A DNA stretch of 64,000 nucleotides, from contig NC_088300.1 in the NCBI RefSeq assembly GCF_032854445.1, forward strand, positions 8,184,001-8,248,000, given 5' to 3'. Each line of letters opens with the position of its first letter. Position 1 is the first letter of the stretch. Both the position numbers and the translations under genes were made by a program. Source of the DNA: Liolophura sinensis (taxonomy: Eukaryota > Mollusca > Polyplacophora > Chitonida > Chitonidae). Below the pieces are notes generated by a model. That model was not told the DNA's origin and did no database searches. It saw only the letters and a list, made by a program, of their open reading frames with translations. This document shows, piece after piece, positions 16,204 through 58,600 of this stretch.

Positions 16204-19200
16204 TTAGTCTTTGTAGTGAACCTTTTTGTCTTGGCACATCAGTTCTCTTACAATCTGTTTGTCTCCTTCATCAGATGACAACCACTGGTGACACAAAAAC
16301 ACATAATCTTCAAAAACGGGAATGCGATCTTCCTGCTTAACTCGAGAGGCTCTTCGACCATAACCTGACTGCTCTTCCTCTTCCTCTGATTGATCAGGGT
16401 GATTGGAGCGACTTCTTCTTGTTGCAGTTGACTGTCTTTGTTTACCCGAGGATCGTCTCCTATCTGTCATGTCTGGTGACACTTCTACACTTCTGTCTGG
16501 AGTATATGATCTCTGCCTACCCTTGTACCTGTCGTCCTCATCTGACCAATCACTGAGGTCGTCCTCTAAGCCCCGTCTCTCCTGAGGAACCACCCACTTT
16601 TCTCGCCGGATCAGGTCAGCCTCTGCTTTCAGTTCACATAGAATCTGTCTCTCCAGAATTCCTAATGAATCAGAATCCTCCAGTTCTTTAAGCTCCTTGC
16701 TGCTGTCTATCTGTGTCTTTCTCACTGATGTTACATGACCTCTAGAGGTGTTCACAGCTCTGCTCTTCCGTCTGCCTTCTTTCTTGGGAGGCACAAACCT
16801 ACGGATACACACCTGTTCAAGAATATAGGTAAATAGGTGAAAATATATTTATTCACACTGATTTATTATTTCTAATCATGACATTTTCTGCATTATATGA
16901 TTCATATAGCCATAGTCAGACTTTTTGTGACAGAAATCAGTCAGAACCAAAAAGAAACCTCACAAAATCCTGAATAAATTTAGTAAACACAGCATGAAAA
17001 TTGGTCGAAATATTCAGGAAAAAGCTGAGTGTCTCAAAAATATACTGATTGCTAATGCATGCTGCATCAATAAGGCACACCAGACACAGTACACATATAT
17101 ACAGCTTCAGTGAGCAAGTGCTACATCTAGGAACAATTTAATAGGGTCACCATTACAATAACACTCACCTTGTCCAGAAACCATCCAGCGCCCACGCCAG
17201 AGTTGTCATGACCAATCAAAATCTTCTCCAAACTCCCAACATTATCAGCTTCAATCTGAAACATAAGCAGAGAAATCAGGTCAACTACATGGTCTCCCTC
17301 GGCCTTATGTAATAATATGATTTCAATAATATGAGAATCCACCCAACACGCACGCAAGTCTACAGTCTGATGTATGACCTGGCAGATAGGTCTCCCAGCA
17401 GTGTAGGATGCAGTCTGCTATGTAACCTGGCAGATAAGTCTCTCAGCAGTGAAGACTACGGTCTGGTATGTAACCTGGCAGGTAAATCTCTCAGCAGTGA
17501 AGACTACAGTCTGGTATGTAACCTGGCAGGTAAGTCTCTCAGCAGTGAAGGATGCAGTCTGGTATGTAACCTGGCAGGTAAGTCCCTCAGCAGTGAGGAT
17601 TACAGTCTGGTATGTAACCTGGCAGATAAGTCTCTCAGCAGTGAAGGATGCAGTCTGGTATGTAACCTGGCAGATAATTTTCTCAGCAGAGAAGACTACA
17701 GTCTGGTATGTAACCTGGCAGGTAAATCTCTCAGCAGTGAAGACTACAGTCTGGTATGTAACCTGGCAGATAAGTCTCTCAGCAGTGAAGGATGCAGTCT
17801 GGTATGTAACCTGGCAGATAAATCTCTCAGCAGTGAAGGATGCAGTCTGGTATGTAACCTGGCAGGTAAATCTCTCAGCAGTGAAGGATGCAGTCTGCTA
17901 TGTAACCTGGCAGATAAGTCTCTCAGCAGTGAAGGGTGCAGTGTGGTATGTAACCTGGCAGATACGTTTCTCAGCAGTGAAGACTGCAGTCTGATGTGTA
18001 ACCTGGGAGAATACCTACCGTAAAAACATCCAGCATATTTCTTTCGAAGTTGTTCTTGGCATCATCAAGTGATATTTCACTGGTGACTCCCTCTGGACCA
18101 ATCATCTGGATAAAAACATTAGCATCCGTCCCACCATATTTAACATCCCCTGTTTTCACCTTTATTTCATACTTTATTATATTACCTGAAATAAATAAAT
18201 GAATGATTGTGGCAATATTATAAATTATACAACATACATTTGTGTACATGCATTCAACAAGTTACGATGAAAGATCTTCCAAATGATTTGGATTTAGTTC
18301 GCCAATTCAAATCTTCATGAAAAAACGTACACAACAGTTACATGTGCCTTTTCAGACAAGGTTACTTATACTTAAGTTGATTAAATAAGTAAAATAACTC
18401 TATAAGACATACACAGGTAAAGTATAAAAAACAAAAAAGATTAAAAAAATATATTCGCATGTTGCTGATGAGATTAAAACTGACAGATCTCACAATTAAC
18501 TCTTGATCTTGCTTTTAAATTCCATTAGATCCAGAGAGCTCTACTGCCGTAAATTCCATTAGATCCAGAGAGCTCTACTGCCATAAATGTTAATCATGAA
18601 GTCCAGAAAATCTCACAGACAAATTAACTGAAAAGTAACTGAAAAGAGTCAAATTGTTCCATTCTTTTTTCACATAGATCTGTTTATCAGCATAATTCAT
18701 GATGGATTTGCACGGTTTGTCAAATATCGAGAGGCTCAGATACCTTACCATTGTGGCCATTGTGGTTACGAGGCTTGTTCCTGACGGGTAACTCCTTCCA
18801 CAGTCTTCCCCCTCCCTCGTCACGCGACAGCCATGAGTTACAATAACAGTAACACTTGAGGGACGGGCAGGACAGTTTGTAGATCACCACCTGGGCAACA
18901 ATTCAGACAGGTGCACATAAATGTCACAACCCTAAAAGGTTAAGTTATCTCTATTCCAAAGAGTGTCCTAAAAGTACCAGAACATGTCCACAGTTAACTG
19001 GATAGTTCTACTGATTCACCAGAACATGTCCATGGTTAACTGAAGAGTGCCACTGATTCACCAGAACATGTCCACAGTTAACTGGATAGTTCTACTGATT
19101 CACCAGAACATGTCCATGGTTAACTGAAGAGTGCCACTGATTCACCGGAACATGTACATGGTTTACTGGAGAGTGCCACTGATTCACCAGGGCATGCCCA

Positions 19201-22200
19201 CGGTTAACTGGAGAGTTAAACTGATTCACAAGGCCATGTCTGTGGTTTAACAGAGAATGTCAGTCTCCTTCAAGGCCACGTCCATGGTTCACTGGAGAGT
19301 GCCACTGATTCACCAGAACATGTCCACAGTTAACTGGATAGTTCTACTGATTCACCAGAACATGTCCATGGTTAACTGAAGAGTGCCAATGATTCACCGG
19401 AACATGTACATGGTTTACAGGAGAGTGCCACTGATTCACCAGGACATGTCCATGGTTTACTGGAGAGTGCCACGGATTCACCAGGACATGTCCATGGTTT
19501 ACTGGATAGTGCCACTGACTCACAAGAACGTCCATGGTTTACCAGTGCCACTGATTCACAACACCATGTCATATGATTTAATGGAGAGTTCCACTAATTC
19601 AACAGCCATTTCATGGTTTACCAGCGTATGAAGTGATTCACCAGACAAATCCATGGTCTACCACAGAGTGCCACTGATTCACCAGACAAATCCATGGTCT
19701 ACCACAGAGTGCCACTGATTCACCAGACAAATCCATGGTCTACCACAGAGTGCCACTGATTCACCAGACAAATCCATGGTCTACCACAGAGTGCCACTGA
19801 TTCACCAGACAAATCCATGGTCTACCACAGAGTGCCACTGATTCACCAGACAAATCCATGGTCTACCACAGAGTGCCACTGATTCACCAAACAAATCCAT
19901 GGTCTACCACAGAGTGCCACTGATTCACCAGACAAATCCATGGTCTACCACAGAGTGCCACTGATTCACCAGACATGTCAACGGTTTACCAGTGTGCCAC
20001 TGATTCACCAGCCATGTCAACGGTTTACCAGCGTGCCACTGATTCACCAGCCATGTCAATGGTTTACCAGTGTGCCACTGATTCACCAGCCATGTCAACG
20101 GTTTACCAGAGTGCCACTGATTCACCAGCCATGTCAATGGTTTACCAGTGTGCCACTGATTCACCAGCCATGTCAATGGTTTACCAGTGTGCCACTGATT
20201 CACCAGCCATGTCAATGGTTTACCAGTGTGCCACTGATTCACCAGCCATGTCAACGGTTTACCAGAGTGCCACTGATTCACCAGCCATGTCAATGGTTTA
20301 CCAGTGTGCCACTGATTCACGAGACATGTCAATGGTTTACTAGTGTGCCACTGATTCACCAGCCATGTCAATGGTTTACCAGTGTGCCACTGATTCACCA
20401 GCCATGTCAATGGTTTACCAGTGTGCCACTGATTCACCAGCAATGTCAATGGCTTACCAGTGTGCCACTGATTCACGAGACATGTCCATAGTTTACCAAA
20501 CAGTGTAAGACCATACAACTGGTTTATCAGAGCCAATGATTCACCACACCATGTCCATGGTTTTACCAGCGGTAAGCAGGTAAACAAGGTTTGATGACCG
20601 GGTGCCAAAAAATATAAAAACTTCACTTTATCAATAAAGGAAAAGGAAATAACGCTGTTCCAACTTCCAGAAAATTCATGCCACATGTCCCTAAACACGT
20701 AACACAAGTGGTTGTTTTCTTGAGGGGCATAGACAACAGTGACTCTTCTTTCCAACAGCAAGCAGTAAGACTCAATATAACTTTTGTTCAAGAACAGAAA
20801 CTCCTGCATATGCCTGGCAAACGTTACAACATGAAGGTATAATGAATTAAAGAACAGAGTGGTAGAGATGAACAGAAAAACTTATCTGTCAGGGCTTACT
20901 GCCTCAGACACATCAATTTCTACGAAAAAAAAGTTAAAAGGAAAAATCACAAAATAATGGACATTATAAACAATTAGTCACCACATGCTTGTAAAAGTCT
21001 ACAACAAAAGTATACAAATCTCACCTTAGAATGCTATTCCACAAGAAAATGTGAATAGAGAAATGAAAAGCCATGTAAAAAAGTACATCTCTGCCATGTT
21101 ATTTGGTTAGCAAACAATGAACTTCTAAACGGAAGTCCATCTGATTTGTGATTTCTTGAAAAATCAATGTAATAATTATCTGTAAATATTTTTATACATT
21201 AGACACAATACTGACTTATATTTCATCTTTAATAAATGACCCTAAATCACAAAGCTTTAAATTACTCTTGACATGGATTTTTATAAATAATTTACAATAA
21301 AAAGAAAATGGTATTTCAATTGCATTTCTTATTTGCTCTGATGTCTGCATATTTCACTGGTACTGAATAAAACTTCACAGAAAATTCTTCTATTTGTTTT
21401 CACCCACTGAAAAAAAATCCTGCCACTGAATCCAGAGGATCTGTTTCATCAACTTTAAATTGAATGTGGTCATAAGGCACAGATAAAGCCATCTGAAACA
21501 TACTCTTCTAAATTTTCCAAACATCTTTTAAAATTTTTAAAGAACCTGGGTGTTAAAATCACATAAAAGAGAACTTAAGGTGGTGTGTTCACACTTGATA
21601 AAGGCTTCATTTGGACAGGTAACTGGTGCATTCGTCCACTCAAACTGCTTGTAGGAGCCTTGATGACAATACGTAGATGGCACTACTATTGTGTGGCTGT
21701 TTGCACTTGTCTTCACCAATATAATGCATAAATGGGGGAAGGTTTGTTAGCTTCTTGCGAAAGACTGATGGTTTAACTGGGCATTTCAGTTTCTTCCAAT
21801 TATAAAGCTGCCATCATCTAAGTAAAAAATTTTTATCACCTGACCAAATAAATGAATGAATACCGGATTGAGAATGTTTAACAGTAATGAGATACACACA
21901 TTCAGTGTAGAAGAGTATACTCACATGATCAAGAAACCATCCTGGCGCTAAACCTTTTCCATCATGCTCCATTCTGAGGACAAAAATTGACTCAATAATT
22001 CAAATTTTTCACAGTCAATTTGATAAAACACATTATGGATTACTTCTACAGCATGTTTAGACAATAATTAAAGTGTTAGTCTCGCTACAGGTGAAACTAC
22101 AATCACATTTTTCAACACATACAAAATAAGCTGAACTTAAGGTAAAAAACCCATCAACTCCCATGACTTGAGTTTTAACAACATTTAATGGCTAGAAGTG

Positions 22201-25200: not shown

Positions 25201-28200
25201 ATCATGAGGTTTAATAAGTTTTAAGCATTGTACGATGAGATGCAGTCTTCTCATTCCCATAAACTTTCGGCATCTCTAGTGAATTTTTCGCTGACTGATA
25301 CTTGTTATTTAGCAACTGCATGCTGACTATTTGCATATCACGAATGACAAAAATTGCATTTGTATAACAGCATATGTAAGAAGGCCTAAGGTCTACTAGC
25401 GAAATGAATGCACTTTGGGCCGAGACAGTATGTTGCTGTCTGACATAATTTGCGATACTGTTGTGAATATTGCACGGCTTGTAAATTAACTGATTTTAGA
25501 TCGGCAGTGGTCCGTAAATGACACAGACCTGTCCAACATCACTGCGTGAAATGGCCCTTCGGTTACACATAAATAAATTGTTGTAAATGATCTCAAAATG
25601 ATGTTTTATGCAGTAGTTTTGTGTTATCATATGTCACTTTGAGGAGTGAATGGGTAAAGGCCAAGTCACTCAACACGCTTGATTGCATTCTCCAGATTCC
25701 CTTGATTCACACCAGCCATTTAAGCAGTATTCTCATCAAAATAATAAAGCATGATGCTTTTTAGAAAGTTTGACTATCCTCCTTTTGACTGAAATATGTT
25801 TTAGCCAGGTGCTGTCTTGCCCTTTACCATTGCTTTCCCTGTTATTGCACGCTGACACCGACTGACACTCGGGGGAAGGAAATAAGCTATGCCTGTACTA
25901 TGTACAGGTGAGCTAAAAATACTTCAGTTTAAATGCTCTGATCAGGAGTAATATTAATTGACACTTGGTACCTGATTTGACCACTTCCTTTGGTGATGCT
26001 TTCAGATGACGTTTGATCTTGAAGTCTTTGATGTGAAGGGAAAGCCATTTCTGACAGAGGAACACCCAGGAATCTTTGGTGGCCATGTCTGTGATTTCCA
26101 CCTTCTCCAGAAACCAGCTGTGCTTCTCCTCTACACCATCATGCTACAACACACAACAAATACCTCAGCGTAAACCCCACATAACTTACATGTCTCTGAT
26201 TTCTACCCTATCCTGACACCAGCTGTGCTTCTCCTCTACACCATCATGCTACAACACACAACAAATACCTCAGCGTAAACCCCACATAACTGACAAAAAA
26301 CTTATCTTAAATTTTACCCATGACTAAATTAATCATGCTGCCGAATTTTGAGAGTTCTAATGATTCGTAGTTAGAAAGGTATTTGGCTTGGTTGTAAGGT
26401 AGGATGATATCATACCTTTAAAAATTTAAGTTCCAGCACTAACAGTTTTACTTACTGATCTTTATTTGTCGCTAATTCATTTTTATTGGCAAATTTTAAA
26501 CTCAGTTGCTGTATAGCATTCTATTTTAACATTTTTTTGCCTGTGGAAAATTGTATGCAATATCTTCAGTTGTATTTTTCTACAATTTGGGAAGTGCTCA
26601 ACCAACCAGTCCACATTTATCATTTCGATTAGTACTTTAGGGTTTTCTATTAATGGTTCTTGTCAGATGAACTGACTACATTCCTCACACAGAAGATTAT
26701 CATCACAAACAATGTCTAGATTCTATTCTATATTTATACACAAAAGATTATTTCCAAATATATTTACATCACAGATACATCTATATTCCAAAATGCTGTC
26801 AGGTCTAGATTCCTGATATCCTCCACGTATAAGATTATGATATCCTGTTACACTGTCTAGATTCTTCACTTCAGATGCTTTACGCATAAAGGAGTATCTG
26901 TTGACAGTTTAGATATTCATAACACTAAAAACTCATGTGTGAGGTATAGATTCTAGATATTAACAAAACAAAGGAGTAGCCCCAAATATGATGCAAAGAT
27001 TCCAGGCAAAGTTTATCACAAGTTTATCTCCACATTCTTGGCTAACACAAAAAGCTGCCCAGATCATATGCCAAATAGAATGATTTCTCCATTCATAATT
27101 TTATCACCTATATTGACTTGTTGGTATTGAGGGCTGTTACTGTATACCTCAATGATTAAAGTTTCAAGATTTCCCAGTTTTGGACCTTTGATGTAGAATT
27201 TCTCCCTTGAAGATCTGCCAAACACAAATCGTGCACAGTGTTTTTGTGAAGTTTCGTCTTGGGTAAAACATCCTCGCTGCCATTAATGCTGATGTAGACC
27301 TGCAAACAATAAAAGACATCCCATACTATTACAACATACCTTAACAGTTAACAGTTATAACAACAACTGAGAAGATGAACAAGAGATTTTCAAAACTTTC
27401 TCCATACTAGATGCAAAAGAATCACAGATAACACTTTAAACCCAGAACAAAATGCAAAATTATTTGATTAATTTAATTAACAGCTGCATTTTCAACATAA
27501 ACCTCCTTTTGATACAGAACCATGTCAAAGAACATGGAAAAAGCTCCCACATGGTCTTCTTACATTAGCATCTGTGCTGGCATTAGGCTTGTCTGCTGTG
27601 AACACCTCTACTTTATACAAAGCCTCGGTGCTCATAAATGATGGCTTAGTTTCTTTCTTCTTTCTAACTTGTGGTGGAGGTGCTATAAACATAATACGAG
27701 GTTTGCGAACCTTCTTTGGAAACGTTCTCTGAAAATAAGAGAAATGGATTTTAATAACAATATTAAACATTGCTTGAAAAATACAAATATATCTCAATGG
27801 ATTTATTCAGGATAAATGTATATTAAATTTTATCACTTGGTACACGTAACTACAATTTCTGTATCCATTATACTCAACTTTTTCAATCTATTCATGTCTG
27901 CATCAAAAACTAATCAAAATGTAAAGTTTATCAAAATGTAAAATAGTAACGAGTACTTTCAGCAAATTTTCAAAAATACCAAGCTGATGAATAATATATA
28001 CAAAGGGCCATTCTCCAAGACCAGATGATTTCAAGGTGATGTACAAACCTCATGATGTTTCTCATGTTCCTCAAGTGTAGTACAAAGATAGCAAAATGTT
28101 GTTGGTGGAGCTGAAATAATCAAATTGTTCCATGTTAATTACTAAATAAAAGTCAGAGATGCTTTTTCCTTGTGTATCAGTATTCCTGGTGTATCATATT

Positions 28201-39344: not shown

Positions 39345-39915
39345 GTGTGAATGTCACACCAGGCTCAGATGGTGGACATAACTGCAGCAAGACAGTAGCA
39401 CATAGAAATGTGCAGTCCTGTACAGGTGTCACAGTAATCCAGGTACACACTGTCAGGTATGAATGTGGCACCAGGCTCAGATGGTGGACATAACTGCAGC
39501 AAGACAGTAGCACACAGAAATGTGCAGACCTGTACAGGTGTCACAATAATCCAGGTACACACTGTCAGGTATGAATGTGGCACCAGGCTCAGATGGTGGA
39601 CATAACTGCAGCAAGACAGTAGCACACAGAAATGTGCAGTCCTGTACAGGTGTCACAGTAATCCAGGTACACACTGTCAGGTATGAATGTGGCACCAGGC
39701 TCAGATGGTGGACATAACTGCAGCAAGACAGTAGCACACAGAAATGTGCAGACCTGTACAGGTGTCACAATAATCCAGGTACACACTGTCAGGTATGAAT
39801 GTGGCACCAGGCTCAGATGGTGGACATAACTGCAGCAAGACAGTAGCACACAGAAATGTGCAGTCCTGTACAGGTGTCACAATAATCCAGGTACACACTG
39901 TCAGGTATGAATGTG
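39345..39915. repeat. 112-bp tandem repeat, about 5 copies
   Basis: The unit begins CACCAGGCTCAGATGGTGGA and contains GCAGCAAGACAGTAGCACAC and GTACACACTGTCAGGTATGA. Two unit types alternate (GCAGTCCTG with CACAGTAAT; GCAGACCTG with CACAATAAT), forming a 224-bp dimer. A degraded partial unit continues to about 40000. It begins about 160 bases after the SNRNP48 stop. Confidence 0.95.
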
Positions 39916-42900
39916 GCAGCTGAGGCACAGATCAGCAGATATCACTGGAGCAAAACAACAGCACAGAGCAGCGTGTAGGTGTCACAATAATCACAGAATG
40001 TAGCCTTAGGCTCATTCACAAAACTGCGTAAGTCATATTTCTCATTTTTGTGTAAAAGATGTCTTGCTTCTAGTGCCACAAAGCAATACCATTAACAAGA
40101 AAAATTACGAAAAACTGATTTACAAAGTTATGTGAAAGTGGGTCAAATCCCAAATGAGGAAGTCATACTCATCCAGATGAAATGTATGGAAGAAGTTTTT
40201 TAAGAGTGGCCCCTATATAGGTTATCTGTTATAAAAGGTAATACTTGTAAGCTATAATTTTGCTGACATTAAGCTGCAGCAAGAGTTACATGTTTTCTGT
40301 GACTGACATAAAAATCATCGTAGTCTCCAGAAACATCTATTTTACCACACATTGAGAACAGGGATCTGTCAAACACCAGGCAGCAGGATTCTGATGTCAT
40401 TTTATTGACATCAAATGTTCCTTTCCTACCTCATCACGATCACATCACAGTAAAAACAGTGTGACGTCACACTGTTTTAGGAACAGATTCATTGTAACTG
40501 TGTAGACGTTATGCTACAATCTGTACTTTGATGTAAGAATGGCTCGAAGTTCTGCTTCACACTAACGCCACCTCATGGGATTAAAAAATATGACGCCTCC
40601 CCACTGATGTATCATGAGAAACAACAACGGGTAAAATGTGTTACAATGATGTGTTTATTAAAATGAAGAAATATAATATTCAGTTCAATAACACTAACAT
40701 GTTTTTCATCAAACCTAAAATTTGTTTGGTAATGTCAACAGTATATATCTCATTCACTCATACGATGTTGTACATTGACCTACTGCACACAGAGACAAGA
40801 AGAAGTTCAACATACATGTATATATATCAAGTTGATACAACACACACACCTAATCTCATAAATACATGTACAGACAAACTGGTCCCAAATCTCAAAAGTT
40901 AGATATTCAAAATATCAAACAGCTTCCTTGTAAATATCAAATGTTTAGTATCTTTTCAGACAGTCATTCCTTCACCTTCAGTATAACTTTTCACAATTAA
41001 GATGATGAAACTGATAATTGCACATCAAAAATAATGAGCTGGAATGGGAAAAGATCAAAATCAGACATTGCCAGTCTCACACAGACTAGGCTACATGTAC
41101 GTACTGTTTTAACATGCTTGTGTGACACCTGTTTTAGTTGCACACATCTAACAAGATCTCTCGCTTGACAGCTATCATTTGTTGGTTTCGTAACAACAAA
41201 ACATCTGCTGTTGATTCTGTAGCAACATAACACGTACCTGTTAAATGTGAAACATATCATAAGCCATTATGTTGTGACACTCAGCACTACTTGTAAACGC
41301 CTGTAAGACACCATAATACACTTTGATGTGCTGGTAACTAGAGATCAGACACCAGATTTCTGCACTGTGACTAGCTTCCCCTAGCATTAACATTAATGTT
41401 CCAATATACACCAAAATATCCGAATGAAAAATCGAATCGGCTTATCTGTTGGTTCACTAATTATATTTATAAGCTTGACAACTGGTGTCGTAAATTCTGT
41501 CAACACCTCCACCCGAAGATGACAATAAAAATACATGTACATACTAATAGGTGTCATTTTACTCTGATGTTTTTATGTTGACTTTCAAAAGTGCCCCTAC
41601 ACTGTAAAAAACAAGACAGAAGTTTCTTTATTCAAACATGGAGTCAAACCTGGTTAAAAAGGCATCAGCCACTCTTTCTTTTGGAGTTGTATTAACATCA
41701 TAGTGGTTCAGTGTCATCTAACCAGCAAACGCACCACCAATTTTTGACAAGTGTGAAGAAACGGTGCAACTGTACCTTAATGTGATAAAGTGAAGGCAAC
41801 TAAGAGGTGGCAGGGGTGAGGGATCAGTGGAGGGAATATGAGTTTTTTGATGCAGGTTTTAACAGTTAACATGTAAGGCAAATGTCCAATGTTCCAACAG
41901 GTTTAAGATATTGATACGATAAGAGTAGACTGCATGTATCAATAACTTTGTCCAACATCAAAATATGCTGGTCAATGGAGGTTTTAGTCCTCTAAATTTT
42001 TCTGCTCCACAGGCATTGGGAAGACTATGAAGGATTCTTGTCAACGTGTACATGTGCATTGCCAAGGAAGTAAATGACAATTTTGATAAGTTCCTGCCAA
42101 GAGAAACAGCCCAAAGAGAGTAACAATTTTTCAGTCCTGCTAGTGACCCCGTGTGGGAGTGATGTACTCGGCTCACCATCACAGATAAACATGTCTGTTA
42201 ATAACACATTGCCACTTACTGATTAAAGCACCAATACTGAATTCGTTATTATTAAATATATGAAAACCCTCGTATATATGCACGCCTCAAATACATGAAG
42301 CCTAAACAACAGAAATACACTCTTTCCTTATGACATTAATGGAATAAGAGAAGGGGTATACAAATTCATTCTTACCCCTGTATGTACCTGTGTAATAACA
42401 AATATCTGTATTCTGATAAACATATATAAATATTTAAAATATATTCATATCACAACACACACACAAGTGAGTACGCACACACCACTAAAACCACACCCAT
42501 TTGAACCTCCTCCAAGTGAAGAGCAGGTAATTACTGTATGTTATAAAAGCACAATTAATTCAGAATTTCACACAATAAACTTGCTACATCAAGTTAAAGT
42601 TTCAGTTACTTTCTTAAAACCTATTTAATATACAAATACATTGTAAAATCCACATACTATATAAAATTACATGCAAGTCATATCAAGGTGGAAAGATGTT
42701 TACAAATACATATGCAGGTACACTTACCTGCACATTTAATATGTGTTTTATTACACTTCTGTTTGTTAGATTTTCACTCCATGTACATGCTTACAAAATT
42801 AAAACCAGGTTTCAAAAACAGAGTTCATTTCCAACATTCTCCTCCCTCAGCCCTCTTTCTTGTGTCACAGCATTTTCAATACCAAGTATTAACTGGGACT

Positions 42901-43685: not shown

Positions 43686-46600
43686 TTAAGTAAAAGGTGT
43701 AAAATTGACCATAGATCTCTTGCCCTTGTTTGACCCTGGCGATTCCCAAACGGTGATGGTGCCATCAGCAGTGGACATGAACAAACGCTGGTTGTCACAG
43801 GTGAAAGTCAGGCTGGAATAACAAGGGATACAACATACTGCACATGGTAAGGAGAACAAGATCGGTGTGACGTGACAATAGAGGAATTTCTTACCTAAAC
43901 TGGCATCACCATGAAATGTGAAGAAGTGTACAACATTCTAATACACTGCAGTGAAATCACTGTGAACTGTTCAAAAGACTGCGCTTATATTCATATTACA
44001 GTTATATGAAATTCATTGAACTGGTTTATTCTTCTGCTGCATTGGCATTTAGATGTTGAGGGGGAATACACTAACAAGACGTTCCTTATGGATACATGTA
44101 TACACCTTCTCGACTTATTCACACGGCGTTTGGATGTATATGTAGATACTAACATCGTTATGTGCAATGTTAATATTTACAAGTACATCGAAACGTCGTG
44201 TGAATAAACCAAGAAGTTGTACATCCATAAGGAACATCTTGTTTAGTGGTTTACTCTATTACAGCCTTGAATCACACCCCCACCCAGAAGAAGACATGTT
44301 ATGTAAGTGGTTACAGGTAGATGATTTTCCTCTCATTCCACAGCACAACGTGCCTGCCTGTACTCACCTGATAACTGGCTTAGCTAACAAGGAAGGGTCT
44401 TGTAAATCTCGGACATGACTCAAATCCCAGGAACTCCACAACCTACAGTAACAATCACAGCATACAGATGTTAGACTCAGATGTACTGAGTGGTTAGTCA
44501 ATATTTATCATGAAACAAAAATTAAATAAGACCAAATACTGTTCACTTTAATAATATTATATTCAATTTAAATTATACAGTTAGAAAATCAGGCAAAGGT
44601 AAAGTCTGAATTTAATATTTTGGGGAATGACTTTAATAGGGCACTTTATTCTTTGCACAATAAATTAAGACATTTCTATCCAGTTTTTTTGATAGATCAT
44701 AACACAGAGAGAATAAGCTCTGTACTGATACAGGCATATCATGTGACACCCAAAATAAAGAAAAAAGTAGTATTGCCACTGTAAATTCCTCAACAAGATG
44801 AGGCTAAAATATGGCCCTGGGTCTTCTGCACACTTGGCCCATGCTCTAACTACTACTAGGGCATTACAAATTTGCCTCCCCGAAAAATGACAAGAAAGAA
44901 AGGTTGCAAAGCAGATATAGGGGCCTACCTGACAACGCCACTACTCAGGCCACCAGCGATCACATTGACAGATCTCCCTTCTGCTGCACTGGAGAAGGAC
45001 ACACAGTTTATCGACTGTTGACAATACGTTGACAAGATGGGCTCTCCATTGACAGTGTGTAACTGAAGACTGCTACCAATACCTGAAACAGGAGCTATAA
45101 TAATGAATCAGTCACTTCATATCTGTCTGAAAATGACTGAAGGATCTCAGTTTGGCTAGAGTAATCGCCTATGTTTAGCAGATGTCTCTGGTATACTGGG
45201 TGAGCTGGGGAGTGGGTGAGGTCAGAAGAGGATGAGCTTGGGAGTGGATGAACTGGAAAGGGCAAATGGCAAAATCCACTGCAGTGCAATTCTAACACCT
45301 GAATGTACATGTAACAACCTTGACCTGACCCCCCAAAAAATTGTCATCAGTATTTAACAAGTTTGAGACACACAAATCTGTTATCTAGTCATAAATATAC
45401 ATGTGGCACATGTGTGGTACATGTGTGGTACACCTGTGTAACGATTTAAATGGGAACCAGCGAAAAAGTTTTATCTCTTCAATGCCAATAAAGCCTATCA
45501 GTTCTTTGTGGCATCAAAATACACCCTTAATGTGTTCTGGCCTCTTGTGTCACACTTTTCATAGTTTAAAATATTCTTATCCATGATAAGCTGATGATCT
45601 TAGCCTGAGAAGGCTTTGTGAAAATGCTGTTGATTACAGGTGTCATCAAGATGGCTACAGATATAACACATATGTACATAAATGTTCTACTTGCTACCAG
45701 TTGGGCTTAAATAAAGCTTTAAGCAAGCTGCTTCAGACTTTTAAAGGACGTAAGTATCAAATACATTCAAGATTTCCTTTTCTTCAGTACAAATGATATA
45801 TTGCACACACAAGAGACAAGTAAACCTAAAAATGTGATTGCTGTAAGTGACATGGGAAATCTACATGTAGCTGTTACAGAACTGCACATCTTATAACCAA
45901 GGAAGAACACATCTTAGAACCGAGGAAGACATACAGGACTGAGTGACTCAGAAGGCACACACAGGTTGACTCACTCTCATCACTAACACTGGCAATGTCT
46001 CTCAGCCTATCACTCACAGCCTCACACTTTATAGCACTCACCCTCATCACTAACACTTGCAGTGTTCCCCAGTGTGTCACCCACAGCTACATATGCACAC
46101 ACTTTATAGCACTCACCCTTATCACTAACACTTACAGTGTTCCCCACTGTGTCACCCACAGCTACATATGTACACACTTTACAGCACTCACCCTCATCAC
46201 TAACACTTGCAGTGTTCCCCAGTGTGTCACCCACAGCTACATATGTACACACCTTATAGCACCCACCTTCATCACTAACACTGGCAAGCCTATCACTCAC
46301 AGCCTCACACTTTATAGCACTCACCCTCATCACTAACACTTGCAGTGTTCCCCAGTGTGTCACCCACAGCTACATATGTACACACTTTACAGCACTCACC
46401 CTCATCACTAACACTTACAGTGTTCCCCACTGTGTCACCCACAGCTACATATGTACACACTTTACAGCACTCACCCTCATCACTAACACTTGCAGTGTTC
46501 CCCAGTGTGTCACCCACAGCTACATATGTACACACTTTACAGCACTCACCCTCATCACTAACACTTGCAGTGTTCCCCAGTGTGTCACCCACAGCTACAT

Positions 46601-49600
46601 ATGTACACACTTATAACACCCATCTTCATCACTAACACCAACAATGTCCCCAATGTATCACCCACAGCTACATATGCACGCACTTTATAGCACTCACCCT
46701 TATCACTAACACTTACAGTGTTCCCCAATGTGTCACCCACAGCTACATATGTACACACTTTATAGCACTCACTCTCATCACTAACACTGGCAATGTCCCC
46801 CAGAATGTCACTCACAGCCACACCCTTATAACACTCACCTTCATCACTAACACTGGCAATGTCCCCAGTGTGTCACACACAGCCACACACTTTATAGCAC
46901 CCACCTTCATCACTAACACTGGCTATGTCCTGAGTGTATCACACACAGCCACACACTTATAACACTCACCTTCATCACTTACACTGGCAATGTCCCCAGT
47001 GTGTCACACACAGTCACACATTTAATAGCACTCACCTTCATCACTAACACTGGCAATGTCCCCCAGAATGCCATTCACACTTATAACACTCACCTTCATC
47101 ACTAACACTGGCAATGCCCCCAGTGTGTCACTCACAGCCACACACTTATAACACTCACCTTCATCACTAACACTGGTTATGTCCCCAGTGTGTCACACAC
47201 AATCACACACTTTATAGCACTCACCTTCATCACTAACACTGGCAATGTCCCCAGTGTGTCACACACAGTCACACACTTTACAGCACTCACCTTCATCACT
47301 AACACTGACAATGTCCCCCAGCATGTCACTCACAGCCACACACTTATAACACTCACCTTCATCACTAACACTGGCAATGTCCCCCAGAATGTCACTCACA
47401 GCCACACACTTTATAGCACTCACCTTCATCACTAACACTGGCAATGACCCCCAGTGTGTCACTCACAGCCACACACTTATAACACTCACCTTCATCACTA
47501 ACACTGGCAATGTCCCCCAGAATGTCACTCACAGCCCCACACTTAATAGCACTCACCTTCATCACTAACACTGGTTATGTCCCCAGTCTGTCACACACAA
47601 TCACACACTTTATAGCACTCACCTTCATCACTAACACTGGCAATGACCCCCAGTGTGTCACTCACAGCCACACACTTATAACACTCACCTTCATCACTAA
47701 CACTGGCAATGTCCCCCAGTGTGTCACTCACAGCCACACACTTTATAGCACTCCTGTGACTGGTGATGGAGTTCACATATGTCAGTCTGAAATGACACCC
47801 AAACACCCCCAAATTACTGGAGTACCACAATCTTTGGAATGAATGTCCACCTAACATGTGTATGAGAAAACCCTTTGTTCACCCCCTGTGTGGTCTCTTT
47901 ACAGTTCAATGAAAATAAAAGGACCCTCAAGTTTACAAATTAGACAGTGCACATATGATATCCATGTCAACCAGTGTACATGGTCTGATCATTGTATGAT
48001 CTTCGGCCAATAATTTCTTCACTGTCTGCTTAAACTTTAACATTCAATGTATGACAACTGTTCTCCAAGAAATAAAGTGAGATTTTTCAAATTTGTCAAA
48101 CTTATATCTGGTGCTTACCTGTTGAGGTCCCATATAATACAGGTGTGGTCATCACTGGCACTGACAAGGATACTGTAGGGCCAGCACACCTGTAAACTGC
48201 TGACCGCCCCACTGTGACCATACAGGTGTTTACAGTGACCCATCACCATCATGTCACTTTCCTGAACAACACACACAAGTCAGACTTTCACATTTTTATA
48301 AAGTATATTATAAACTTGTCACCAAAAACTCATCTAATAAAAACACAGCACAAAGAAGCATGACAAACTATTACTGTTTTATACTATGATTTTAGGAGAG
48401 AATATTTAGTTAAGGTTCATGGAGGTTGATTCCTCAGCAGTTTTTACGTTTTGATCATGTTCTTGGTACGCTGACTTCCATTACTGATGTTTTAAAGTTA
48501 ATTATCTTGGTAGAGTGGTAGTTAGTGATGTAGACAGTTATCACATCTATGTGTTTAGTCCTTACCTTGGCAGAGTGGTAATTAGTGATGTAGACAGTTA
48601 TCACATCTATGTGTTTAGTCCTTACCTTGGCAGAGTGGTAATTAGTGATGTAGACAGTTATCACACCTGTGTGTTTAGTCCTTACCTTGGCAGAGTGGTA
48701 ATTAGTGATGTAGACAGTTATCACACCTGTGTGTTTAGTCCTTACCTTGGCAGAGTGGTAATTAGTGATGTAGACAGTTATCACACCTGTGTGTTTAGTC
48801 CTTACCTTGGCAGAGAGGTACATCTAGTTAGTAAAGTGATGTAGACAGCTATCACACCTGTCTGTTTATGACTTACCTTGGCAGAGTGGTAGTTAGTGTT
48901 GTAGACAGTTATCACACCTGTCTTCCCTCCAGTAAACAACAGTCGACAGTCAGGTAGCGAGGCACAACAACACACCTTCATAGAAAACAGCAAAGAGACA
49001 TATATCTGTATGAAAAGGCTGACATTTCACCCTCATGAACTGGAACTGATCTCTGCGTATGATACTATATCATAGACACGGTAGCAAGGCTCAAAAAGAG
49101 CTCCTCTGTAGAAGACACACGAATGCAAAATTTCAGATCAAAACATACAGTACTTCAACAAATACAATGTACCTGATGTGCTGATACACAAAATAGTGAT
49201 GAAGGTCATGAATCTGGTAATTTACAGAAATTTACACAGCAGGGCATTATTCAACAATGGAACTAGTGTCACTGTTCTTTACAATGATATACAAGAGCAC
49301 TGTTAACATTTATATACAGACACATTTATCAAGTCATATGAAGCTAGATATTACACGATTAGTGCTGTAAATACACATGGACGACATTCTAATATGACCT
49401 TGTCTGTGACATTTTGAACACACAACATTGCCAGAGGAATGAATGGCTGAATGATCATGGCTGAACACCACATCAACAGTGTTACCAGAGGTATTTAATG
49501 CACAATAACTGTTAATTTTAGGTTACCCCATTCGTGGGTTCCTCTGGCAGGAAGTTAACACTGGGCATGTCCTGTTTGTTCTGTATCCTCAGCACTCCAT

Positions 49601-52600
49601 CAGGATATCCCCAACTGATAATGGCTGCCCATACAACCAGAGTTGTGTTCATGGAGATGACACCTGCAAGGTGAATTACATCAGATCAGTGTAAACTTTT
49701 GCATGAGCCGCTATGCGGATTCATACAGTTTACACGGCGTTTTTTTCGTTTATACCCCAATAAACCTAAAAAAATATTACAGGCAATCCTTACAATTTAA
49801 TTTAAGGAATAAAACGATGTTATCTACCGTTTTACTTTCATTTCAAACTATGAAAAATGCTGGTCAATTGATTTGGGAACGTCGCAGGCTCCAGAATGCA
49901 CATTTTATGAAAGAGATTCTTTGGGCCAATGAAACTGGTGATCAAAGTTCTACCGTTACTAAGCAACAGTGAGTCAAATGACAAGGCAAAGTTTACATCT
50001 TCAGGTCGAGTCAAAAAGAAATGTTATTCAGCATATTTACATGTAACGCTTGTGCAAAATCATGAAGCCGGCATCATAATATTATTATTATTAATGTATC
50101 ATTTCTTCACTAGAATATTTTACTGCAAGGTACCAGACAAACTTCCTAACTAATCAAGCACATTTCGCTTAGGTTAAAGAGAAAAACACAACATAAAAAT
50201 ATGAAAATCAGACAGCTCGGGGGAAATGATTACCTGTCATTACCATACTTACACTATGCAGTACAAAACAAATGTATTTCTAAAGTTGAGCTTACAGCAT
50301 CAATGGTTTGTCAGTCTCCTATCCCCTTCTTCCACGACCTCCCCCACCCAACCACCACCCATACAAACACACACATTCACAAAATTTAAGCTTCCAGAAA
50401 AAGTCTGCTACTGACCTCTCTCCTTGCTGTACATGACCAGCAGACAACCATTAACACCAATCCCAAACACCTCCCCTGTGGGAAGAGATGCCAAAGAGGC
50501 CACAGCCTTGTCGTAGTGGGTTTGCCAGATGGGCACAGGCTCAGGGCAATCCGGGGAGCCCACAAACATGCCCCAGGAGAGACCCAGCACCTGGCGAGAC
50601 GGGCTCATCTGAAACCAATGTTTTATAGACCTATACATTCCAGTTCGTGTTGTTTAAAATCCATAGCAAAATGTGATATCAAGTAAAATTTTATAAAGCA
50701 AAATGAATCTTAATACATTTTCAAATCTTACCTATAAACTACTACAAGTCTAACTGATTTGATGTAAGACTTTGATATTTTTATGCTGATATACATAGTT
50801 TAAAATAAAATCTTTTATTCAAGACTTCCGATTGTTGCAGGAAATATTTATGGTTCTTACTGGCTACAAACTGTGGGAATCCTAGCATCACACAAAATCA
50901 ACAAAAAATTTTCCCTTTCATTTAATTAAACAATATTTGTATATAACACCATTTTTTTTTCTTTTTTTTCTTCTTCTTAACCTGTTAAGTACAGACGCTA
51001 CTCCTGTAAAACTTATATTAATCCAAAATTGTTTCCTGACTTACGGTATCATCAGATATTAAGTTGGTCATGAGCTGTGACGGCTGTGAGGGTGGAGAGG
51101 ATGCCTTTGAGAACAGCTGGGTGATCTTCTCCAGTCCTACAGGAGTGTTCTCACTGGTTGAGGACTTGGGTGGGTGAGGTGACATAAACAGTTGTTTGGG
51201 GGTCTGGCCGTACGTCTTGATCATGGTTTTCATGGCATAACGTCGCACTGGGTCCTTGATTCCTTCCACATCCACACCGAAGTATGTCTAAACAGTACAG
51301 GTAATCCAAATCACAGCTTAAGGGATATGAGGGGGGAACCTAATAATATATTACTGGAAAAGGGGCCAAATTGGCGGATCTTTCAGCTTCCAAACTGGTA
51401 TGTTGGCGTGCAATTAAACCTTCAAAAGAAAACCTTTGCTTGACATTTATACCTCTATCTGTGCAAGATGTGCATGGAGTGTGAACCTTCAACAAGGAAA
51501 CTTTTTCATGAAACTCAAACATGGAAAACTGCATACAGCTAACCAAAAGCATACAGCTGACCAAAACATCAGCAATTAGGCACTTAATTTGCTCTGACCT
51601 GAAGTATAATCCCAAATTTAGAATGCTGTCGTACCACATCATGTGTTAGAAGTTCCTAATTTTACTACCTAATATATACAAGGTACATACAACAGATACA
51701 AGATCATATAGAGCTGAAAATGTCAAAACCAGAGTAAAGGAATCCTCGCCTGGATCTGAAGTGCATGTTTGTGTGATTCTGACTGAAGTCTGTATGGTAG
51801 ACAAAGAGTGATAGTGCTTCCTGGTTACGTACAGAAGGATGAAAGACGTTGACAGCCTTGATGGCCATTTCTCCCTGCTGTTTGTAGCCAAAGACGAGGT
51901 CTATCCAGTCATGAAGAGTCTGGCTGACGATGGTGGACTCTAGGGCCTGTCTGTGGATGAGGATGAATTGACGAGCATCCTGACAACACCAGGCAGGTAA
52001 GATCACATCTGACACCTCCTCCCCTGTCTGACGACGGCCAAAGTTATACCCTGAGAAACAAGAGCGGGAGCAGGGGCATGATATCAGACAAGTCACACCC
52101 ATTCATATTGTCACAAAGCCAATTGTAACTCCATTATCCATTTGTATGTACCGTACATTTAAAGTCAACAAAAATACACTGTAAGGTTATATATAAAACC
52201 AAACATAAAATCTCGTCAGTCAGTGGTTGGTCAGATAAGAACTGTACAGAATTTAGTGTTCAATGTGCTGTAGAGTCAGTGTGCTTTAGTGTACATTGAG
52301 TTTTAGTATACAGCGTGTTTCTATAGCCTGCAGACTGTGTTTTAGTATACAGTATGTTTCTATAGCATGTGGACAGTGTTTTAGTACACAGTATGTTTCT
52401 ATAGTGTGCGAAATGTGTTTTAGAATACAGTGTGTTTCGATAGCGTGTGGGTCGTGTTTTAGTATACAGTGTGTTTCTATAGTGTGCGGAATGTGTTTTA
52501 GAATACAGTGTGTTTCTATAGCATGTGAACTGTGTTTTAGAATACAGTGTGTTTCTATAGTGTGCGGAATGTGTTTTAGAATACAGTGTGTTTCTATAGC

Positions 52601-55600
52601 GTGTGGACCGTGTTTTAGTATACAGTGTGTTTCTATAGCCTGCAGACTGTGTTTTAGTATACAATATGTTTCTATAGCATGCGCACTGTGTTTTAGTACA
52701 TGTACCGTTACCTTCTTTGTTGAGGAGGAAGTCAGGCAGGAAGAAGAATTCCGGGATAAGTTCCTTCACGTCTGTGGTTGACTCGTAACTTGACAGTCTC
52801 CAGGCAGTATTCATGCTGTGGAACGTCCGGTCAGGGATGTCAAAATTGTTGTCTGAATCACAAATTATATTCATGTATAGTAAAATGTCATCAAAATCAT
52901 ATGATTGTCAGTATACTTCCATGTATGTATTCCATTATTTAGCTGTCACCTACTTCTACATGTACCATATTACACTAACTGTAAATATAAATCTCACAAG
53001 ACAAAATGTTATGAATACAGCAATAATGTCCCATGGAAATCTTTCCGTTTCAGCTTCTGCAAACATGTATGACACATCTACGGGACAGGTAACATAGGTG
53101 TAACGAAGGTCCCACTTATTGTATTCTTACATAAACACTGCTGGTGAGTTCATTCTTTCTTCACAGTGAAACCTCACCTTGGTATGAGAGAAACATCTTT
53201 GTAAAGGGAGGTAAGCGCACCAGGAACTGGAGAACTGTGCCACTATTGGAGTAATGACTGCCGTAGTGGAATGGGGTTACCTGATACATCACAGAGTTTT
53301 CATCATTCATGGATCGCTCACACTCCAACTTTAAGTACTGTAAACCAAAAAAGATAAAAATGACATGTCTGTCGTAGTGGAATGGGAGTTACTTGATGCA
53401 TCACCATAGTTTTCATCATTCACTGAGCACTTACACTCCAATTTTAGGTGCTGTAAAGCAAGAAAGGTAAAAGTGACATGTGTCAATGGTGACCTAGGGT
53501 AACTTGCCAGTAAACTTTAATATCATCTGCTAACGAAAAAGTCTAATCAGTCAGTTTACAGGTTAATGAACAACAACAAAAAGTGACAACCAGCTGCTAA
53601 AGATATACCTTTAGGCTTTCATTGCAGTGCATAGCTGAAATAAAGTAAAACCACATTTCTCAACACACTTATACATTGTCCACATCCAATCTACATGTAG
53701 GCTAAGTAAAAAGCCTGTTCAATCAGATGACTCTGATACCCACATTTTCCCACATCATCCCAATACCTTGGCAAACTTCATCACAGTACATGTTGTAAGC
53801 ATCTCTAATAATATAAAAATAAGAAAAAATGTAGACTTTTGCTGTTTTTGTTTTTTTTCAAAGATCCTTACATTATAGTTATCGATGTACTTCTGTTCCC
53901 GGACTTTATCTTGCACAGCAATGGGCTTTGACAGGTCTCTGCAATATGATACACAAATTTACTGTCAACAAAGATGCTTTGGCAAATCTAATGCGATGTG
54001 GAATTAAAGGACATAAAAGCACCACATATTCTGTTTTCCTGTTTATGAGTTCTGAATCCACAGTTTCAGACATTTGGTGACTTCACATTTACTACTGGAG
54101 GATATCAGACATTTGGTGACTTCACATTTACTACTGGAGGATATCAGACATTTGGTGACTTCACATTTACTACTGGAGGATATCAAGACAGGCCCAAAGC
54201 GATCATGAACTTTCAGATTTGCACAATGAATTAACAGCCATGTAAACCTAAACTGTAATCAAAGCAAACAGAGACACAGATATCAGGACAACCAATTATG
54301 AGGTCAATTATGTGAGCGTGAATTTGCCTCTCGTCACCTGAAAATGCCAGGGTTGTTGAGGTCCAGGGACTTGCTGACATAATCCTTCAGTATGAATGGG
54401 AAGACTGGGTACTGCATGAGGTCGTTGAAGGACCGACCAGCCATCTTGTTCAGGTGGGTCAGGTACTCAAAGTTGGTCATGTGACCTTCCACCCACAGCT
54501 GCTGAATGGCGGTCAGATTCTCCGTGGGAATCAGGTTAGGTAACTCCATGTTGTCCAGATGGTTCACTAACTCATCTCTCTCCTGTCAAGCACAAGACCC
54601 ATGAACTGACGGTAAAACTGTGGAGAGCTCATGATGTCATTATCTAGGCTCAAAACAGGGTATCTCTACATCATCAAATAGGCAACACAGAGAGGCTCAT
54701 CTAGTTAATATCAAGATATTACAACATAACCTACTTTTCAAAATATCGAACAAACTGTCTGAATTCCATATTAACACAAAAATAATTTTACTTTCAGCAC
54801 AAATTGGGGTTAACTAATATTAGAGTATCTCAAGTTGACCAATATACATCACTAAAATTTGTTTCAATGTTTCAAAATTGGTAACAATTTAACACTGAAG
54901 AATAGTGAAGAAATACAGTATTTCTCTTTATACAAATATCAGATGTGAACCTGTTCCATGCCTGTGTGTGTATGAGAACACACACCTTTGAGCTGTCAAA
55001 AGCCAGCAGGTAAGTCTTGCCATTGGTCAGGAAAATCTCCAGTGCTATGTTCCTCAGTTGATACCTCCTCTTGTGAACTTCCTTGATGTCAACATGAGGC
55101 CAGGTCATGGACAACTGGTCTTTGTTACCCAGCAACACCTGGGAATAAGTAAGATATTATCATAGTGCTGTAACAGATTCTGAGAGTCCAGTACTCTGAG
55201 GTGATCTCAAGATAAGATCATGCACTATTTAACCATGTTCATCATACTGGCCATGATTTTAACTTTTGTAGAGTATTATACAAGATGTTGCATTACAACA
55301 AAACACATTTCCATATATATTCAGAAAGTTGAATTATAATGTAAAGGGCGTACCTGTGTATAGTTAGCATCAGACATTGCCTCATCTGCCACAAAATACA
55401 CACAGTTTTCACCTTCAAAGAAAAATAAGCGGCATAAATATCTGACAATTAGAAATAACAAGAAGAAAACAAAATTATGTAGTCTGACATCACTGTAAGG
55501 GACAATTATTGATTCTATAAATTTGGTTGTACTTGAAGCACAGGTACATACTGATTTGTAATAATGAATGATAATGCAAATTATATCACAACATACATGT

Positions 55601-58600
55601 AATTTGATTCTTAATGGCAAAAGTTTCAAGGAAATAAAAAATATTCCATATGAATTGTTACAAAATACAATTTATACAGTAAATTCTGTTGAAAATGCTG
55701 CATAAAATCTGACTCCACTGATGTAAGAGATAAACTTCTCCATCACTTGCACTTTACCTATGAGGATCTCCCCCTTGCTCTCATTGGCTGGTGTCACTGC
55801 TGTACATTTACAGGTATGCCTACATTTGGAACAAGGAAGAAACTCTAATTGGTAAAAAGCTACAAAATAAACTAATTGCAAGAATAAAAATTCTACCAAA
55901 CAACAAGTTTGCTTCTTGAAATTTGCTGGTTGACACATATTTCATTACCAAGTCTTTGAAGAGTGAACCTCATGTATTATATATACAATACAATTAGGAT
56001 TAGAACTGTCAAGCAATATGTTACATTATATATGTCTATGATGAATGGTAAATACACAGTAGAGTTATACAGCCTATCACTTGGCCAGCTACTGACTGTA
56101 TATCAACAAGTATCACATTTATTTGAAACCTTTCATGGGATACATAATCGTTTCTGATTGCCTCATGCGAGAGATAGACAATCCCAGGCTATACATGGGC
56201 TTAGCTGAATTTTAGGTATGGTACATTTATTCAAGCGTGACCACGGCTGCCGGGTTTAACCCAGGGGACCCTATCTCCACTTTCAGCCAATCAGCATTGA
56301 TTCTCTATCCCTATAAGACTATGTTCATGTTAATAATTGAGCATACTGTATTTTTTCATTGGTGTACAAGCGATAGATGAGTGCAGCAGAATCTGACGTC
56401 TGATGGTCATCTTCAAACAGGTAAATCAAAGGTGCCGTCGCCTTCTCCTTATCTGTGAAACAAGATGGGTCATGAATTAACTATTTTCTAATCTCAGGGC
56501 ATCCCTGAAATGTGTACCGGTAACTGCAAAATACTTGAGGTTTAGCTTCAGTGATTTATGTTATATAAATTCTATTTGAAATCATAAATGTAAAACCCCT
56601 GATCACAATATATAAATGAAGCAAAATAATGATTTAAAAACATATTGTGTATTAGTACATAACACATACAATGTATAGCATTAAATACTTCAGTAGGCCG
56701 ATTTCCTTTGAAATATGTTTTCAAATACTTCCATATCAGAATCAAACAACTTTCTCCGCTAATTCAAATTTAAAACCTATTTTCATGGTCGAACATTTAG
56801 AACAATATCAGCACAATATATGTAAATCTTGACTGTGAACATTTGTTTTCTGTGGAACTGATACATGTATATCCTACAGACCTAGCTTGTATTGTGCCTC
56901 TTTCTTGAGGAAGCGTTTCTCCAGCCCTAGGTGACACCTCTGCAGCCTTCGTCTGACTCTACATGGACCTTCAGTGGGATCCAGTTGCCAAGACTGGGGA
57001 GATGACTCTGGACAGTGCCACACAGCCCTGACAAATCACATGAATACATATGTATGAGAATAAACTATTTAGAAGCTTCTTGTCTTCTGTTCTATAGATT
57101 TAACTTCACTTTAATAATTATTTTGGTCGCATTATTACTGCTGGCAGCATTATAGTGTCCAAGCTACAAAAACCTTTCAGGTGATTTGCCACACCATTTC
57201 CCATTCATTATTTCCCAATTCTATGATCTTCTCAACTTTGATTCAGTTTGTGAACATAGATAATGCAACTGTCTCAACAAATGCTAAAATAATTTCTTGA
57301 CCCTATTCTGAAGCACTTTGATGCAGAATTATATGCAGAAAACATAAAAATTTACTAAGGTTAAAGAGCACTAAAGGCACACCTGAACATTCATTCTTGT
57401 CCCACAATATCATTCCACTGGCACACCCCAGGGAAATCATTTGCTGGCTACAGGCTTCCTTTTTGTTGCTCAAATAAAAGTATTAGCTAGTACTGTACTC
57501 TGTGCCTTTTCACCATGGTTATATGCCTTTTCACCGTGGTTATATGCCTTTTCACTATGGTTATACGCCTTTTCACCGTGGTTATATGCCTTTTCACTGT
57601 GGTCATATGCCTTTTCACCGTGGTTATATGCCTTTTCACCGTGGTTATACGCCTTTTCACCGTGGTTATATGCCTTTTCACCGTGGTTATATGCCTTTTC
57701 ACCATGGTTATACGCCTTTTCACCGTGGTTATATGCCTTTTCACTGTGGTCATATGCCTTTTCACCGTGGTCATATGCCTTTTCACCGTGGTTATATGCC
57801 TTTTCACCGTGGTCATATGCCTTTTCACCGTGGTCATATGCCTTTTCACCGTGGTTATATGCCTTTTCACCGTGGTTATATGCCTTTTCACCGTGGTTAT
57901 ATGCCTTTTCACCGTGGTTATATGCCTTTTCACCCTGGTTATATGCCTTTTCACCGTGGTTATATGCCTTTTCACCGTGGTTATATGCCTTTTCACCATG
58001 GTTATATAACAAAGCTCGATCAACCCATATAATATTGCTTCCTTACCTTTCATGAGTGAGCTGCTGTACCAGATCTTGCCAGCACTTCTTCACATGTATC
58101 CTGTAACTCATCGACTGTTTGATGTGGTCAAAGAACTTCTTTCTTTCAGCATTCTGAAGCTGAGTGACCAGCTGGGTAACTTCTGATGCATTGGCAGATA
58201 TTCTGTTTGAAATACTTTCATATTTTGTCAAGATTCTGAAAAACAATCATACTAATTTATTCAGGGCACTGAGGAACCGGAGGGAGGTATGCTTGGGAGG
58301 AAAGGTGTGTGTCTTGGGGAACCCAGCCATTTTCCATAGACATGCCCATTGACCCTTCCTTGAATTTATACTTAGCCCCACTCTAATTCATGTACTTCAC
58401 ACAAGATTCAAAATTATCATTGCTCCACTCCTTCAAGGCAGATATCAGAATAATCAATAGCAAAGATGCTTATTAATTTTTTTTACCTTTATACGACAGA
58501 AGAAATAGAACTGGAAGGTCTCGACAGACAGATATGTCTTGTTGGAGTATTATGTCTTTTACCTGTTTAAAGCTACTCCACGTTTTTTAATCCAGTTCTC

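Follow-up and report, generated by a model that had tools for sequence, protein, structure and literature searches.

A boundary-spanning donor array of the amphioxus mirage class in a LYST-type gene of the chiton Liolophura sinensis

The window analysed here, 64,000 nucleotides from the chiton Liolophura sinensis (assembly GCF_032854445.1, contig NC_088300.1, positions 8,184,001 to 8,248,000), carries in its right part a minus-strand LYST-type gene in which the end of a WD40 exon, together with the 5' splice site (donor) that follows it, has been multiplied into a tandem array. By structure this array is a mirage, the name given in amphioxus to minisatellite-like repeats that span exon-intron boundaries on the donor or the acceptor side (PMC3087553, PMC3902484). 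With a probability of about 0.8, we believe that it is a near-neutral minisatellite born from tandem duplication across the splice junction, and that the exon-proximal donor would be the one used. The first-pass annotation of this DNA had considered an exon that seeds its own array of decoy donors to be unusual, a view that finds no support here, since many such arrays occur in this genome and the class had already been described.

The host gene encodes PH_BEACH, BEACH, and WD40 domains in that order. A family search with the protein joined by hand from its exons returned BEACH with an E value of 3.9e-111, PH_BEACH with 5.3e-15, and WD40 with 1.4e-11, and four of the BEACH exons were also recovered independently in a listing of Pfam matches. 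The closest relatives of the joined protein among solved structures are neurobeachin and LRBA; our preference for LYST over these two relies on resemblance to the known LYST sequence, and we speak of a LYST-type gene. The seeded WD40 exon (Table 1) is coding, lies in the correct phase, and terminates in GAAG/GTGAGTG (the slash marks the splice junction). The upstream exon, which ends with DLN-AG/GTAAGC at 48118, is compatible with it in phase, as is the downstream exon, in line with the earlier proposal that the rightmost unit of the array is a real, in-phase LYST exon. These phases also bear on the idea of an intron under construction, in which AG/GT units would be turning into new mini-exons or introns as proposed for the amphioxus globins. 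This model has been argued in PMC3087553 and is related to the human boundary repeats that form introns (PMC2812944). In the LYST-type gene, however, the flanking exons agree in phase with donor 1 and with the acceptor that follows, so that no new intron is needed, and we consider such a process quite improbable here.

Nearly every unit of the array carries the last ~57 to 64 bases of the exon, the donor GAAG/GTGAGTG, and the first intron bases. The array is flush with the exon, with no gap between them, which settles the question of whether it might instead lie between unrelated sequences. Tandem Repeats Finder (TRF) reported 66-bp units at 46753-47753 (15.3 copies), near the exon, and an overlapping block of 75-bp units at 46023-47066 (14.7 copies), while a terminal partial unit extends the array to about 45968. 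Together with the 26 anchors that we counted, the authentic copy included, this substantiates the array of about 25 copies that had been claimed at this exon end. The extent given for it, 45950-47786, needed a small correction: the array itself (~45968-47753) ends at about 45968, and it comprises two unit subfamilies, 66 bp long in the exon-proximal part and mostly 75 bp beyond about 46787. Similarity to the exon copy drops with distance, from 0.97-0.79 in copies 1 to 14 to 0.75-0.61 in copies 15 to 25 (Spearman -0.80, with gaps scored as mismatches), a gradient suggesting that the units next to the exon are the youngest. A search of the genome with the array unit gave at least 26 matches; all 26 that were listed fall inside the LYST array, and on this ground an origin from a dispersed repeat or transposon was rejected.

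Most copies have kept a plausible donor, as had been claimed. The GT is present in 23 of the 24 aligned decoy copies, and 12 of these copies equal the authentic donor in score. Scored with a donor weight matrix that was not derived from this genome, the array contains 23 donor sites above 6, of which 13, the authentic one included, score 8.3; for the complete minus strand of the window, with the array counted in, the density of sites above 6 is 0.75 per kb. The first two donors have equal scores and lie 66 bp apart with no stop between them, so that splicing at donor 2 would insert 22 in-frame residues, and a TGA follows in frame beyond donor 2 and ahead of donor 3; the spacing, the 22 residues, and the stop are as the first-pass annotation described them. 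Conceivably, then, donor 2 might be used at some rate, giving a repeat-length isoform with 22 extra residues in the WD40 propeller, an arrangement that the equal scores and the stop-free spacing would permit. Such an insertion would, however, place a second copy of a strand in a conserved domain, and reading from donor 3 onward would run into the stop. Moreover, just 5 of the 11 donor arrays considered below have units whose length is divisible by 3, and decoys are weakened in some of these arrays. We found nothing in the sequence in support of this isoform, which we regard as improbable.

Table 1. Splice-junction arrays in the window and the LYST-type exons and donors belonging to them
Feature	Position	Strand	Basis or remark
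LYST-type WD40 exon, 98 bp	47689..47786	-	last ~57-64 bp plus donor are the founding unit of the array
Authentic donor AG/GT (donor 1), last exon base 47689	47687..47690	-	phase agrees with flanking exons
First decoy donor (donor 2, 47623), 66 bp downstream	47621..47624	-	22 extra residues, in frame
Donor-side mirage array, ~26 units with the authentic copy counted	~45968..47753	-	sequence, TRF, anchor count
Downstream LYST exon (ends ...VVR)	44929..45082	-	starts TTTCAG/GAATTGG at 45082; acceptor phase matches donor 1
Second seeded LYST exon	48877..48975	-	start inferred by eye
Second donor-side mirage, ~seven 60-bp units with GCCAAG/GTAAGG	48502..48925	-	from exon ending 48877; same build as main array
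Acceptor-side mirage, 2 copies of 113 bp	53254..53481	-	intron end, AG, and start of BEACH exon 53337-53178, same LYST-type gene
Acceptor-side mirage, 2 copies of 105 bp	26084..26295	-	PLAT-type exon, first exon base 26143

We propose that the array began with a tandem duplication across the exon-intron boundary and would then have grown by unequal exchange or slippage, the units far from the exon presumably being the older ones. The spliceosome would take the exon-proximal donor through exon definition, this site being the nearest to the upstream acceptor. If so, the copies would leave with the intron and the array would be close to neutral. The decoy donors would persist because the copies are young and homogenised, and not through retention for a function. 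Most likely, then, the first donor is the one used and the entire array is spliced out as part of the intron.

The frequency of such arrays was estimated from 154 stretches of this genome that surround exons identified by Pfam matches in dynein, kinesin, myosin, SNF2, and BEACH genes. A first sample comprised 78 stretches with 172 exons (146,324 bp) and a second one 76 stretches with 97 exons (94,175 bp), the latter analysed with the same script and with the prediction recorded beforehand. These 269 exons are a chosen, non-random part of the 385 listed family matches (81 + 132 + 90 + 24 + 58); two matches of the first sample lay outside the fetched stretches, the second sample includes five BEACH matches with one internal stop, although matches with stops were to be omitted under the plan recorded for it, and exon boundaries were picked by a simple score, some of them wrongly. 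Arrays were accepted at a TRF score of at least 50 and a period of at least 15, with overlapping rows merged, and were called spanning if they reached 4 bp or more past the boundary in both directions. For the null expectation, one unit-length seed per array was placed randomly, though not wholly within exons.

By these measures the two samples contained 39 and 37 arrays, respectively (76 in total), and boundary-spanning arrays were present at 18 of the 269 exons (6.7%), 12 on the donor and 6 on the acceptor side. Donor-spanning arrays thus account for 12 of the 76, with a further 2 in the LYST-type gene. The junction itself recurs in 17 of the 18 spanning arrays (donor 11 of 12, acceptor 6 of 6). 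Spanning arrays numbered 10 of 39 against a null of 4.05 in the first sample (5 of 2000 trials) and 8 of 37 against 2.94 in the second (12 of 2000). The excess lies on the donor side, with 7 arrays against 2.0 (6 of 2000) and 5 against 1.44 (27 of 2000), while acceptor arrays numbered 3 against 2.06 (676 of 2000) and 3 against 1.52 (385 of 2000). When the samples were pooled and the shortest period was taken as the unit, the 18 spanning arrays compared with 7.14 expected (0 of 3000), the donors with 3.6 (2 of 3000), and the acceptors with 3.58 (404 of 3000); with the fundamental period the corresponding expectations were 8.33 (3 of 5000), 4.16 (2 of 5000), and 4.2 (1184 of 5000). Under stricter TRF cut-offs the donor excess stays at 2.6 to 3.2 times.

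Several observations weigh against our interpretation of these data. With the best-scoring period, which is often of higher order, the excess shrinks to 18 spanning arrays against 11.76 (85 of 3000) and 12 donors against 6.01 (45 of 3000), and the acceptors come to 6 against 5.98 (1679 of 3000). The spanning arrays have a GC content of 0.44, compared with 0.404 in other arrays, 0.366 in introns, and 0.475 in exons; arrays being GC-richer than introns, composition may explain part of the donor bias. In the first sample, a profile of nearby copies around donors, which measures coverage and not origin, did not rise at the junction, with 3 of 171 at the cut and 13 of 170 at +150. In the same sample, donor-like motifs in arrays had no clear sense-strand bias: at scores 4 to 8 they occurred in 7/4, 5/3, 3/2, 3/1, and 2/0 of the 39 arrays (sense/antisense), and a count by site gave 14 sense and 50 antisense motifs, 45 of the latter from one array (L012). 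Finally, AG is kept in 35 of 41 copies in the six sampled acceptor arrays, and 7 of these 35 have a higher score than the authentic acceptor on a crude scale that we devised for this purpose and that is not derived from this genome, which means that the authentic site is not always the strongest. One array, in a myosin-family match (L155, 1-455), has 13 near-identical decoy acceptors in a row upstream of the authentic one; under simple first-AG rules a decoy should win there.

Taken together, donor-spanning arrays occur at 2 to 3.3 times chance, depending on the unit length chosen, and acceptor-spanning arrays near chance; the donor excess is present in both samples and its size is uncertain. 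Presumably, a tandem duplication is more likely to begin, or to persist, at a 5' splice site than at a position taken at random in an intron. We put forward tentatively, as something that might be the case and falls short of being probable, that introns are being enlarged across the chiton genome preferentially from 5' splice sites, by donor duplication followed by minisatellite growth, in convergence with lancelets. If this were true, thousands of pre-mRNAs would contain series of almost identical donors in competition, with splicing nevertheless taking place at the first of them.

Do the decoys serve a purpose? Conceivably, they are U1-binding sites kept by selection, which would tune splicing of the exon or shield the intron from early cleavage. 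To the retention of GT in nearly all aligned LYST copies can be added the 11 donor arrays (9 sampled and the 2 of the LYST-type gene; L055 and L069, with no aligned copies, and L101, with a doubtful boundary, were left out), in 10 of which the donor core is closer to the authentic copy than the remainder of the unit is (Wilcoxon P 0.042). This comparison was ungapped and anchored at the centre, however, which gives the centre an advantage. Positions -15 to -4 show much the same conservation, and the donor core does not clearly stand out in this respect from the adjoining exon part. Over the 11 arrays, GT is kept in 91 of 100 decoy copies; 50 copies match the authentic donor in score, and no copy surpasses it. 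All copies are at full donor strength in L008, L073, L105, and L119, and in these four and the LYST array 4 to 12 decoys equal the authentic site, whereas few strong donors are left in L010 (3 of 15 copies at authentic strength) and none in L070, where a strong authentic donor (GTGAGT) is followed by 13 weaker copies (0 of 13 equal). The existence of acceptor-side arrays of the same kind argues further against a role as donor decoys, which we think unlikely. The pattern resembles recent common descent of the copies followed by decay, and not maintenance.

The assembly from which these data come was reported to have 632 scaffolds, 609.5 Mb, and an N50 of 37.34 Mb (PMC11068029); the species, published there as L. 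japonica, was corrected by the authors to L. sinensis (PMC12441733). In agreement with a mollusc host, we find 8 molluscan haemocyanin domains in a row in this genome. The mitochondrial gene order, with genes named by eye, also agrees with a mollusc, and we take it to be the ancestral molluscan one. A lancelet source of the DNA was rejected; a search for the GFP family also gave no match, a result of little weight. Contig C99 contains COX1 seven times, at intervals of about 15.5 kb, and resembles a mitochondrial concatemer; C632 is a single copy of 15,209 bp. That such a contig occurs in the same assembly indicates that artefacts do arise, and the LYST array could in principle be a collapsed or expanded repeat. 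Its units, however, differ among themselves in an ordered way, and similar arrays are found at many loci. In addition, the published mean HiFi read of 8,347 bp (PMC11068029) makes an artefact unlikely, and overall we judge this explanation highly improbable.

Other arrays and repeats lie in the window. In the second LYST array (Table 1), GT is kept in 5 of 6 aligned copies, all of them weaker than the authentic donor. In the array at the exon at 26143, putatively PLAT-type by its motif, the junction stretch compared is identical between the copies. The decoy outscores the authentic acceptor in one of the two acceptor-side arrays of the window, again on the crude scale. Two further arrays, at 52300-52698 and 17363-18010 (39- and 48-bp units), start about 10 bp past a donor and exclude it. 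At 57503-58007, about 40 bp past the donor at ~58046, a 21-bp unit occurs in 24 copies and is open in several frames on both strands. That exon end reads AAAG/GTAAGG, and the notion of non-GT donors in this genome was dropped; among 48 exon ends with a low donor score, those inspected had a GT nearby. A 112-bp unit (about 5 copies, 97% match) at 39348-39918 lies just downstream of a plus-strand frame ending KHKSHKS at ~39188, and a 39-bp unit (about 37 copies) at 19010-20498 lies near minus-strand PLAT-type exons.

The host being a chiton, the mirage class occurs outside lancelets. We found no earlier report of this in the literature searched, which lacks most subscription journals. The mollusc host, the frequency, and the donor bias are new; the structural class is not. 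If our interpretation is correct, boundary-spanning minisatellites are a recurring route of intron growth in animals and not a lancelet oddity, and the chiton offers a natural experiment in widely conserved genes, with sets of equal decoy donors or, in L155, a row of near-identical acceptors. Of practical concern, gene-annotation pipelines may call repeat units as exons.

In amphioxus, mirages have been described in Adh3, the globins BflGb6 and BflGb9, TnC, and PGBD5, with AG/GT signals in many but not all units (PMC3087553, PMC3902484). Their length is unstable, also in somatic tissue, and regular splicing is apparently left undisturbed, to judge from Adh3 data and from RT-PCR of the globins (PMC3087553). 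The LYST array resembles them in its tandem unit across the boundary, in the authentic, in-phase coding junction at one end, and in signals retained by most but not all units (23 of 24, and 91 of 100 over the 11 donor arrays), and this genome, too, has both donor and acceptor forms (12 and 6 among the 269 exons). It departs from the original description in its host, a chiton and not a cephalochordate, a matter of taxon and not of structure. Whereas the lancelet cases were described gene by gene, the chiton ones comprise an array of about 26 units in LYST and boundary-spanning arrays at 18 of the 269 exons sampled. The human 6-16/IFI6 minisatellite, by its title, puts several donors into one transcript; its units are reportedly short and its donors used in mRNA, whereas the LYST unit is long and includes ~57 to 64 bp of exon. 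Minisatellites at boundaries are also shared with human segmental-duplication genes, in which internal tandem repeats at exon-intron boundaries alter splicing or form introns (PMC2812944). Those repeats, as far as described there, vary between recent paralogues and have transcript support, in contrast to the LYST unit, which among the matches listed is confined to one locus. The Rogers model of intron gain by tandem duplication of AG/GT (cited in PMC3087553) likewise begins with a tandem duplication containing splice signals; unlike in that model, the LYST duplication sits at a junction that was already present and extends the intron there.

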